Positions 393 to 6,674 of a DNA stretch of 64,000 nt are shown here, piece after piece (positions within the stretch are counted from its first letter, which is position 1; each line of letters opens with the position of its first letter). A program made the position numbers and the translations under genes. Under the pieces are notes generated by a model, which made no database searches, was not told the DNA's origin, and saw only the letters and a list, made by a program, of their open reading frames with translations. Origin of the DNA: Rhizobiales bacterium Ga0077545 (lineage in GTDB: Bacteria; Pseudomonadota; Alphaproteobacteria; Rhizobiales; Methylopilaceae); the NCBI GenBank assembly GCA_001464335.1, contig LNEV01000019.1, positions 1-64,000 of the forward strand, in the 5' to 3' direction.

Positions 393-1055
393 TTACACCG
401 GCCACTCGCCGAGAGTCCACGCCGAATTCCAGAACATCCATTCGAGCTGCGTCGCGCGCGTAAAGGCGTGGTGCATCGCCTTCAGGGTCTCGGGCGAAGC
501 CTTCGCCGCCGCGCGGTCGGTCGTCGCGATGACGGCGCGCACCGCCTCGTGGAATTCATCTCCCGCATAGGTGTCGATCCAGGCCTGATAGGGATTGTTC
601 GCCGCCGCGCGGGCATGAATGTCGCGGCCGACCTCGGCATAGATCCAGAAGCAGGGCAGCAGCGCCGCCAGCACGACGGGATAGCTCTCCGACCAGGCGG
701 TCGCGATGAGATAGTTCGAATAATGGTGGCAGGCGGGCGAGAGCGGGATCGCCTCGAAATCCTGTGCCGACACGCCGAAGCGCTGGAAGAAATCGCCGTG
801 CAGCGCCCGCTCGACGATGATCGCGACCTTCGCGCCTTCCGAGAACTGCACGATGCCGTCCGCATCGTCGGCCTTCGCGGCGGCCACAGCCAGCGCGCGG
901 CCGAACGCGATCAGGTAATGGGCGTCCTGGATGATGTAATGCTTGAAACGATCCTCGGAGAGCGTGCCCTCCGCCAGCGCCGCGTTGAACGGCATGGTGC
1001 GGATCGTCTCATAAAGCGCCGCATTGGCGGCCCAGGCGTCCTTGCTGAACGTCAT
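393..1055 (-). CDS. tenA: TenA-family aminopyrimidine aminohydrolase / thiaminase II
   Basis: This 220-residue protein is a TenA-family enzyme. The family hydrolyses thiamine or its degradation product formylaminopyrimidine to salvage the HMP moiety for thiamine synthesis in the cytoplasm. All the active-site residues known from Bacillus TenA fall at the same numbers: D44, Y112, C135 (in LLPCFWIYAEVG), Y139, Y163 and E205 (in QLEWMFW), so the enzyme should be active. The start chosen is the ATG at 1055, giving MTFSKDAW; it overlaps the upstream gene's stop as ATGA, implying translational coupling. A longer frame begins 16 codons earlier but lies wholly inside the neighbour. No other thiamine gene is nearby, and the gene sits at the tail of the atp cluster. 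Confidence 0.93.
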   Translation of the reverse strand: MTFSKDAWAANAALYETIRTMPFNAALAEGTLSEDRFKHYIIQDAHYLIAFGRALAVAAAKADDADGIVQFSEGAKVAIIVERALHGDFFQRFGVSAQDFEAIPLSPACHHYSNYLIATAWSESYPVVLAALLPCFWIYAEVGRDIHARAAANNPYQAWIDTYAGDEFHEAVRAVIATTDRAAAKASPETLKAMHHAFTRATQLEWMFWNSAWTLGEWPV

Positions 1056-1486
1056 TGAACGAGTGCTCCATAGAAGGCTGTGTCGAGGCGGGGAGGGGCG
1101 CAATCAAAGTAAGGACGGACCAGATCGACGGCGCGCGGATCCACGGAAAACAGGTCCACGAACGAACTGTCGACGACAATTATGATCAGAAAGGGGTGCT
1201 CGTCCGCCTCGGATCGGAACGCTCGGAATTCGCCCCAGACGACTTGACGGAGCTCCCCGCAGAGGCTTTCGAACTCGGGAGTGGACAGTCTCGCACGGGA
1301 CGTCAGTGCCGAATCAAATCCGGCAGTCGCTGCGGTGTCGAATGCGTCGCCGACCGCTGAGCCTTCATTCTCGAAAGGCAATATCTGCCAAAAGGCAGAC
1401 GGCAGAACCGGCCCCAGGATCGATAACAGCTCGCATATGTCGAGAACAAAACCCGGAGAGGGCCGTGTCAGCGAGATTGCGTGCAT
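1052..1486 (-). CDS. Hypothetical protein coupled to tenA
   Basis: This 144-residue protein is not recognised. It has no signal peptide, no membrane segment and no obvious catalytic motif; the C-terminal half contains a hydrophobic strand (FLIIIVVDSSFVDLF). The gene follows atpC after 31 bases, has a good Shine-Dalgarno (GAGG four bases before ATG), and its TGA overlaps the tenA start as ATGA. That layout argues it is a real gene translated together with tenA. By eye its base composition is somewhat less GC-rich than its neighbours. It could be a small regulator, partner or immunity-like protein; there is no evidence to choose. Confidence 0.6.
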   Translation of the reverse strand: MHAISLTRPSPGFVLDICELLSILGPVLPSAFWQILPFENEGSAVGDAFDTAATAGFDSALTSRARLSTPEFESLCGELRQVVWGEFRAFRSEADEHPFLIIIVVDSSFVDLFSVDPRAVDLVRPYFDCAPPRLDTAFYGALVQ

Positions 1487-1517: not shown

Positions 1518-1922
1518 TCAGTGAACGGTGACGCCCGCGGCGCGGATATCCTTGATCCACGCAATGTTCTGCGCGGCCTTGGCGCGCGTCTCGTCGCTCG
1601 TCGCGTGGCCGAGGGCGGCTTCCGCAACCGCGATCTCGCGGGCAAGCGCCTCGCTGTCCAGCTCGGCGGCCGGGAGGGCGAAGTCCGCGAGGATCGTCAG
1701 GCCGTCCGCGTTCACTTCGGCAAAGCCGCCGCGCACGTAGAAGCTCTGGACCGAGGAGCCCGTCTTGATGGTCACGACACCGGGCCGCAGCACGGTGATG
1801 AACGGCGCGTGGTTGGCGAGGACCGTGAATTCGCCCTCGACGCCCGGCACCGTCACTTCATCGGCCTGTTCGGAGATGAGAAGACGCTCGGGCGAAACCA
1901 GTTCGAACGCGAAAGAGGCCAT
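1518..1922 (-). CDS. atpC: F1-ATPase epsilon subunit
   Basis: This 134-residue epsilon subunit is part of the F1 central stalk; it couples rotation to catalysis and inhibits ATP hydrolysis. The N-terminal beta-sandwich is plain (FELVSPERLL, then VPGVEGEFTVLANHAP, then VRGGFAEV), followed by the two-helix C-terminal region with the alanine-rich stretch around residues 88-115. Its length matches the alphaproteobacterial family. It is the last F1 gene of the operon, 12 bases after a small membrane-protein gene that normally is not there, with GGGA upstream of its ATG. Expected location: cytoplasmic face of the inner membrane. Confidence 0.97.
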   Translation of the reverse strand: MASFAFELVSPERLLISEQADEVTVPGVEGEFTVLANHAPFITVLRPGVVTIKTGSSVQSFYVRGGFAEVNADGLTILADFALPAAELDSEALAREIAVAEAALGHATSDETRAKAAQNIAWIKDIRAAGVTVH

Positions 1923-1934
1923 GACAATGTTCCC

Positions 1935-2174
1935 TTAGCGCCGCCCGACGACGATCCCGGCCCCAAGGCCGAGGATCGCGCCGATGGCGGCGAAGATGCC
2001 GATATGTTGCCACTGGTCGGAGGTGATCTCGCCACCCCCGCGCGCGGGCTGATCGCCGGTGATCTCGATGTTCAGCGGGCCGATATTGATCTCCGCCGAT
2101 TCCGGACGGGTGACATAGCCGGCGAGCGCTCCCGCGAGGAGCCCAAGAACAAGCAGCATGGCCTTCGAGTTCAT
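1935..2174 (-). CDS. Small two-helix membrane protein inside the atp operon
   Basis: This 79-residue unrecognised protein has two clear membrane segments: residues about 6-22 (LLVLGLLAGALAGYV) and about 57-77 (IGIFAAIGAILGLGAGIVVG, glycine-zipper-like). They are joined by a polar loop of about 34 residues containing EINIGPLNIEITG. It starts with ATG at 2174, 22 bases after the atpD stop, and stops 12 bases before atpC, so it is embedded in the operon on the same strand. It has no overlap with either neighbour. The Shine-Dalgarno is modest. The position suggests an accessory or assembly role for ATP synthase, but that is inference; it is not AtpI, which sits by atpB. Confidence 0.7.
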   Translation of the reverse strand: MNSKAMLLVLGLLAGALAGYVTRPESAEINIGPLNIEITGDQPARGGGEITSDQWQHIGIFAAIGAILGLGAGIVVGRR

Positions 2175-2196: not shown

Positions 2197-4570
<2,374 letters not shown>

Positions 4571-4584
4571 TCGCGGTCAACCCC

Positions 4585-6114
4585 TCAGGCGAAGGTCTTG
4601 GCGAAGGCGTCGACGGCGGCCTTCAGTTTGTCGCCGGTGTCCTTCGAGAGTTCCTTCGACGTGCGGATCGCATCGAGGATGTCGGTGTGCTGGGTGCGCA
4701 GGAAGTTGAGCAGACCCTGCTCGAACGGACGCACCTGAGCGACCGGCAGGCTGTCGAGATAGCCGTTGGTGCCGGCCCAGATGACCGCGACCTGCTCTTC
4801 GACCTTGAGCGGCGAGAACTGGCCCTGCTTGAGCAGCTCCGTCAGGCGCGCGCCGCGGTTGAGGAGCTTCTGGGTCGTGGCGTCGAGGTCCGAGCCGAAC
4901 TGCGCGAACGCCGCCATTTCGCGGTACTGCGCGAGTTCGCCTTTGATCTTGCCGGCAACCTGCTTCATCGCCTTGATCTGGGCGGCCGAGCCGACGCGCG
5001 ACACCGAGAGGCCGACGTTCACCGCCGGACGGATGCCCTGGTAGAACAGATCGGTCTCGAGGAAGATCTGGCCGTCGGTGATCGAGATCACGTTGGTCGG
5101 GATGTAGGCCGACACGTCGTTGGCCTGCGTCTCGATGACGGGAAGGGCAGTCAGCGAACCGGCGCCGTTGTCGTCGTTGAGCTTCGCCGCGCGCTCGAGA
5201 AGACGCGAATGGAGATAGAAGACGTCGCCCGGATAGGCTTCGCGGCCCGGCGGACGGCGCAGAAGCAGCGACATCTGACGGTAGGCGACGGCCTGCTTGG
5301 AAAGATCGTCATAGGCGATGAGGGCATGGAGGCCGTTGTCGCGGAAATATTCGCCCATGGCGCAGCCGGCGAAGGGCGCCAGGAACTGCATCGGCGCCGG
5401 ATCGGACGCGGTCGCGGCGACGACGATCGAATATTCGAGCGCGCCCTGCTCTTCGAGCACCTTTACGAACTGCGCGACGGTCGAGCGCTTCTGGCCGATG
5501 GCGACATAGACGCAGTAGAGCTTGGCCTTCTCGTCCGTGCCCTTGTTGATGGGCTTCTGGTTGAGAATGGTGTCGAGGATGACGGCGGTCTTGCCGGTCT
5601 GGCGGTCGCCGATGACGAGCTCGCGCTGGCCGCGGCCGACCGGGATCAGCGCATCGATGGCCTTGAGGCCGGTCTGCATCGGCTCATGAACCGATTTGCG
5701 CGGAATGATGCCCGGCGCCTTGACGTCCACGCGGGCGCGCTTCTTGGCGTTGATCGGGCCCTTGCCGTCGATCGGATTGCCGAGCGCGTCGACGACGCGG
5801 CCGAGCAGTTCGGGACCGACCGGAACATCGACGATCGAGCCTGTGCGCTTGACCGTGTCGCCCTCTTTGATGTCGCGGTCCGACCCGAAGATGACGACGC
5901 CGACATTGTCGGTTTCGAGGTTGAGGGCCATGCCGCGGATGCCGCCTGGGAACTCAACCATCTCGCCGGCCTGAACCTGGTCGAGACCGTAGATGCGGGC
6001 GATGCCGTCGCCGACGGACAGAACCTGTCCGACTTCGGAAACTTCGGCTTCTTCACCGAAATTCTTGATCTGATCCTTGAGGATCGCGGAAATTTCAGCG
6101 GCGCGGATGTCCAT
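4585..6114 (-). CDS. atpA: F1-ATPase alpha subunit
   Basis: This 509-residue non-catalytic nucleotide-binding alpha subunit of F1 has Walker A motif GDRQTGKT at residues 169-176 and the conserved arginine-finger region [10 protein letters not shown] toward the C-terminal third. The N-terminus ([19 protein letters not shown]) is the segment that contacts the delta subunit. Its ATG overlaps the atpH TGA by one base (TGATG), so translation of the two is coupled. Confidence 0.98.
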
Positions 6115-6674
6115 CAGCGCACCTCTTTCATGGCGTGTTGGATGGCGGAAAGGCGAGTTTTCAGGGAGGCGTCGACCATGCGGCTGCCAAGCTGCACGAT
6201 GATGCCTCCGATGATCGAAGGATCAACCTTGATGTCGATCGCGACGTCCTTCTTGGTGACGTCGGCGAGAGCGGCCTTGATGTCCTTGATGCGGGCATCG
6301 TTCAGCTCTTCGGCGACGGTCACCTTGGCCGTCAGCTCGCCGCGTGCCTTGGCGACGATCGCGCGGAAAGCGCGGATCATCGCATCGACCGAGAACAGGC
6401 GCCTGTTCTTGGCAGCGAGCTTGATGAAATTGGCGGCAAGGCCCGAAATCTTGGCCTTGTCGAGAATGGCAGTGATGGCTCCGAGCTGTTCTCCGGCGCT
6501 GAACACCGGGCTCTTCACCAGCCGCTTAAGGTCGTCGCTGCCGGAGACAAGGGCCTCGAAGCGCTGCAGATCCTTCAGGACGGCGTCGGTCGATTTCGCG
6601 TCTTCGGCAAGCTCATACAGCGCCGTCGCGTAACGTCCGGCCATGCTTGTCGGTGTCGCGTCGATTTCTGACAC
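6114..6674 (-). CDS. atpH: F1-ATPase delta subunit
   Basis: This 186-residue delta subunit (OSCP family) anchors the F1 head to the peripheral stalk. It shows the helical N-terminal domain ([22 protein letters not shown]) and the conserved C-terminal block ([13 protein letters not shown]-like: [30 protein letters not shown]). The longest start is a GTG at 6674 with no clear Shine-Dalgarno; the ATG ten codons in (MAGRYATAL) is the alternative. It is the first gene of the F1 operon. The 215-base gap behind it, up to priA, should carry the operon promoter, which I could not place with confidence. Confidence 0.96.

Follow-up and report, generated by a model that had tools for sequence, protein, structure and literature searches.

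Between atpD and atpC, the F1 operon in the 64,000-nucleotide stretch analyzed here (the window) carries a small gene, orfX, that is almost certainly real and whose product belongs to a new, narrow protein family. Its genomic position, on which the claim is based, suggests that orfX is probably tied functionally to ATP synthase. We consider the chances about even that it encodes a non-essential, lineage-specific F1Fo accessory factor that helps the membrane sector to assemble or to stay stable, a role assigned by analogy with AtpI-type proteins.

The F1 operon in the window has the order atpH-atpA-atpG-atpD-orfX-atpC, with all genes on the minus strand:

6674..6114, minus strand: atpH (open reading frame and translation)
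6114..4585, minus strand: atpA (open reading frame and translation)
4570..3698, minus strand: atpG (open reading frame and translation)
2197..3678, minus strand: atpD, F1 beta subunit, upstream neighbor of orfX (TIGR01039, E 3e-249)
1935..2174, minus strand: orfX, gene for a 79-aa two-helix membrane protein, MNSKAMLL...VVGRR (open reading frame, same-place homologues, dN/dS mostly 0.05–0.39)
1518..1922, minus strand: atpC, F1 epsilon subunit, downstream neighbor of orfX (NF001851, E 4e-47)

The names atpH, atpA, and atpG are presumed from general sequence knowledge; HMM matches were used only for atpD and atpC. orfX begins with an ATG at 2174 and its stop codon ends at 1935, giving a product of 79 aa, MNSKAMLLVLGLLAGALAGYVTRPESAEINIGPLNIEITGDQPARGGGEITSDQWQHIGIFAAIGAILGLGAGIVVGRR. 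The gene is separated from atpD by 22 bases (2196–2175) and from atpC by 12 bases (1934–1923), and it overlaps neither, in agreement with the earlier note on this DNA, which had described a 79-codon frame with these gaps and given no strand. Upstream, no stop interrupts the frame before it runs into atpD, and counted from a TTG it would have 237 codons; despite this, the start was placed at ATG 2174 because the homologues fix it there. Downstream of the atp operon lies a TenA/THI-4 family gene (393–1103, minus strand; PF03070, E 1e-43), and between this gene and atpC is a 144-aa open reading frame (1052–1486, minus strand) with no Pfam match.

Homologues were searched for by protein sequence only, ignoring genomic context. 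A single-sequence search of 61 relatives identified orfX in 14 genomes of its own family, with 48–78% identity. When 397 genomes of the order were searched with a profile, two more families proved to have members, and about 20 of the 397 carry the gene. A pattern-based and hence not exhaustive scan, run without regard to context on 84,980 species genomes, gave 45 loci. The homologues fall in four clades of Hyphomicrobiales, namely Methylopilaceae, Methylobacteriaceae and their kin, Kaistiaceae (Bauldia), and deep MAGs labeled Xanthobacteraceae. Named hosts are Methylopila, Hansschlegelia, Chenggangzhangella, Agaricicola, Methylobacterium, Methylorubrum, Enterovirga, and Bauldia, and further hosts are MAGs with the labels Xanthobacteraceae, Bradyrhizobiaceae, and Beijerinckiaceae. 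The homologues keep the frame, the glycine spacing, and the position of orfX, and some of the Kaistiaceae proteins are strongly diverged. A class-wide search yielded no convincing member outside the order. Weak matches outside the clade (L021 and L146–L152, E 1e-3 to 1e-2) were taken as low-complexity membrane matches; among the first 66 loci fetched, L021 was the only one outside an atp operon. In a plasmid collection, one partial match was found, on a Methylobacterium bullatum megaplasmid without annotation. Judged by dN/dS (Nei-Gojobori), which lay at 0.05–0.39 for 16 of the 17 pairs and at 0.68 for the remaining one, the orfX protein is under purifying selection. These values resemble those of atpC in the same pairs and exceed those of the very conserved atpD.

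The atpD-orfX-atpC order and strand are invariant in all 57 distinct loci measured, which is the conserved linkage with atp genes looked for in the class of ATP synthase accessory proteins. Together with the dN/dS values, this bears out both signs that the earlier note had proposed to look for, a conserved position and low dN/dS. orfX starts 1–106 bp past the atpD stop (median 5), a spacing well suited to co-transcription and to translational coupling. None of the genomes searched showed an unlinked copy; the examined loci with clear matches all lie at the atpD-atpC junction and no genome has a second match. Pairwise protein distances of orfX track those of atpD (Spearman 0.57) and atpC (0.38), with none of 1000 permutations as high, as fits co-inheritance with the operon.

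Most of the order is without orfX. The statement that this junction normally holds no extra gene applies to the greater part of the order: in about 30 other families, the gap is mostly about 5–130 bp and without such a frame. The gene was detected in 14 of 199 sampled genomes of the family of Methylobacterium and in 7 of 28 of the family of Bauldia. The sister genus g2 has 13 genomes, and orfX is missing from four of them (G010, G011, G015, and G016). The atpD-atpC gap in these four is 81–174 bp with hairpin-like sequence inside, compared with about 270–380 bp in the presence of orfX, and no remnant of the gene was seen in it; an absent frame with unchanged spacing, the outcome named earlier as speaking against the gene, was thus not what was found, and the shrinking of the gap points to whole-gene loss. 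On an atpD tree, the g2 genomes without orfX sit among carriers in two or more separate positions, and orfX has therefore probably been lost repeatedly. About ten changes of state are needed on this tree, and well-supported branches make four of these unavoidable. Many of its nodes are weak, and it does not tell repeated loss apart from a degree of horizontal operon transfer. The operon is otherwise intact in the g2 genomes that have lost orfX. Because the gene is missing from most of the order and from 4 of the 13 g2 genomes, ATP synthase works without it and orfX is not a core subunit; it is non-essential and dispensable.

Hydropathy analysis gave two hydrophobic stretches, at approximately residues 3–21 and 55–77, with a polar loop between them. 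The elements of the protein are as follows:

2115..2168 (codons 3–20), minus strand: helix 1, predicted transmembrane, with the glycine zipper G11-x3-G15-x3-G19 (AlphaFold2 helix 3–21; hydropathy)
2091..2111 (codons 22–28), minus strand: TRPESAE motif directly past helix 1 (P24 invariant; T22, R23, A27, and E28 at least 90%)
2046..2105 (codons 24–43), minus strand: beta-hairpin in the loop, predicted and uncertain (AlphaFold2 strands 24–31 and 34–43, first model)
2004..2024 (codons 51–57), minus strand: polar TSDQWQH motif directly ahead of helix 2 (T51, Q54, and H57 at least 90%)
1944..2021 (codons 52–77), minus strand: helix 2, predicted, with the glycine zipper G65-x3-G69-x3-G73 (AlphaFold2 helix 52–77)

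G11, G15, and G19 are invariant both in 25 and in 29 diverse members, and G65, G69, and G73 are invariant in 25. AlphaFold2 with 25 sequences predicted a helix at 3–21, a beta-hairpin at 24–43, and a helix at 52–77 (mean pLDDT 85). For the Methylorubrum protein, two helices were again predicted, with an unstructured loop (pLDDT 70, low loop confidence), and the beta-hairpin is considered uncertain because it is missing from this second model. The two glycine-rich membrane helices proposed earlier are thus recovered in hydropathy, in two conserved zippers, and in the models of two members. The loop, which the earlier note had called conserved-looking and polar, is conserved at its two ends (TRPxxAE and TxxQxQH), whereas its middle varies in length and sequence. 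By the positive-inside rule, the average charge in 49 members (N about +1, loop about −1, C about +2) favors an N-in/C-in topology with both ends cytoplasmic.

The description of the protein as unrecognised was correct for Pfam and NCBIfam, in which the window protein has no match above cut-off. The family as a whole gave scattered sub-threshold or single-member matches to Pfam, NCBIfam, and PHROGs, none of them convincing. No sequence match was found in the PDB, and searches with the orfX model reached a best E of 0.32 in Foldseek and a best Z of 6.3 in VIA, within the background for helical models. Glycine-zipper, bPH_10, and similar models (PF13488, PF13441, and PF23494) share glycine-spaced transmembrane segments with orfX, but their matches to the window protein are all partial and below curated cut-offs; YqeB-like bPH_10 (PF23494) scored 21.6 bits against 27 and covered only profile positions 60–97 of 151. 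Subunit c (AtpE, PF00137) resembles orfX in having two helices, a glycine zipper in helix 1, and a short R-x-P-like motif past helix 1. However, subunit c has its proton-binding carboxylate in helix 2, where orfX has no conserved D or E; the hhalign probability is 0.9%, PF00137 is not among the Pfam matches, and a normal atpE is present elsewhere in the genome. AtpI and the zeta inhibitor are known alphaproteobacterial assembly and inhibitor proteins. Zeta, like orfX, is alphaproteobacterial, and it is an accessory protein of ATP synthase; it is soluble, unlike the membrane-predicted orfX. No match to PF07345 was obtained for orfX, the zeta gene of this genome is on contig C17, and 58 of 61 relatives have zeta, whether they carry orfX or not. 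In a further difference from orfX, zeta is encoded outside both atp operons (PMC9317440). A second, divergent zeta gene (PF07345) was observed in five relatives (G008, G009, G011, G015, and G056). A literature search, with most subscription journals outside its coverage, found no paper describing orfX. In a figure of a survey of atp operons, hypothetical intervening ORFs are marked 'X' (PMC4154653).

We propose that orfX would be a small inner-membrane protein with two glycine-zipper helices, cytoplasmic ends, and a short periplasmic loop. With its two zippers, the hairpin would be expected to pack tightly in the membrane, plausibly also against a partner in Fo (subunits a, b/b′, or the c-ring), and such packing may help the membrane sector to assemble or remain stable. 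An ATP synthase accessory protein is the best account of a gene that is tied exclusively to the F1 operon in several families, is under purifying selection, and is dispensable. The earlier proposal of an accessory, assembly, or regulatory factor is plausible and in part supported: a genuine, selected gene that several families of a single order always have at the atpD-atpC junction is what such a protein would predict. The loss of the gene at least two times in g2 and its absence from most of the order speak against a core role. That orfX is a stoichiometric supernumerary Fo subunit, lineage-specific and having arisen in, and been repeatedly lost from, one order, appears unlikely. The main rival, which we hold to be possible at best, is that orfX, a small membrane protein co-expressed with the operon, serves some other purpose, for example in a membrane or pmf stress response, owes its place there to expression level only, and does not touch ATP synthase. 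A glycine-zipper two-helix design is common to many unrelated membrane proteins, and the weak Pfam similarities are of that sort. Moreover, unrelated small ORFs are found in the atpD-atpC gap of other families, so that the junction may simply tolerate insertions. Nevertheless, with no unlinked copy found, such exclusive linkage over several families would be unusual for a hitch-hiker.

Two further explanations are both improbable. One is that orfX is a second AtpI-type c-ring assembly chaperone and thus a diverged AtpI/ATPase_gene1 paralogue. AtpI/UncI is likewise a small, two-helix, glycine-rich, non-core membrane protein of similar size, encoded with ATP synthase genes, and two of 25 orfX members have a sub-threshold match to PF09527 (best E 0.036), and the profile comparison shows a 14-residue GxxxG match. 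It differs in belonging to another sequence family: the score of 13.2 bits is below the gathering score of 26.6, and hhalign against the AtpI profile gave a probability of 20% over 14 columns. The place differs too: the AtpI gene precedes atpB in the Fo operon, here on another contig, and in the six such operons inspected it comes before both atpB and atpE. Of 61 relatives, 60 have a regular AtpI, whether or not they carry orfX. Because AtpI and zeta are both present alongside orfX, it is no replacement for either. The other explanation is a cis-acting or regulatory element, in which the short frame, by being translated, would set the atpD:atpC expression ratio and the peptide itself is of minor importance. 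The short spacings, often 2–5 bp past atpD, and the place just ahead of epsilon, whose level affects inhibition, would suit this, but the protein is under selection with invariant residues inside its helices, no Rfam element was found in this stretch, and no consistent substitute was seen in genomes without orfX. Finally, many spurious ORFs are present in the GC-rich window, as would be expected if orfX were a chance open frame, but this explanation has a negligible probability and is refuted by homologues across families, in the same place and under purifying selection.

The usual view of bacterial ATP synthase is that of eight fixed subunits with a few known helpers (AtpI, AtpZ, and zeta). 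If orfX is an accessory factor as proposed, it suggests that the parts list of ATP synthase still lacks lineage-specific factors, and its hosts include genetically tractable methylotrophs such as Methylorubrum/Methylobacterium.

The atpD-atpC junction seems to take in small genes repeatedly. In three other families of the order (L097, L109, and L113), it holds an unrelated small, zinc-ribbon-like protein with an F/HCPFCGTxLQ motif, and the one such protein tested had no Pfam match. The gaps of L114 and L201 contain other unrelated ORFs, a weakly YHS-domain-like protein (PF04945, below cut-off) and a matchless 64-aa protein. In a genome of the Methylobacterium family (G058, L205/L111), atpD was not found near atpC and the operon may be split. 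Inverted-repeat sequence is frequent in gaps without orfX (L076, L094–L096, L185, and L187–L189).
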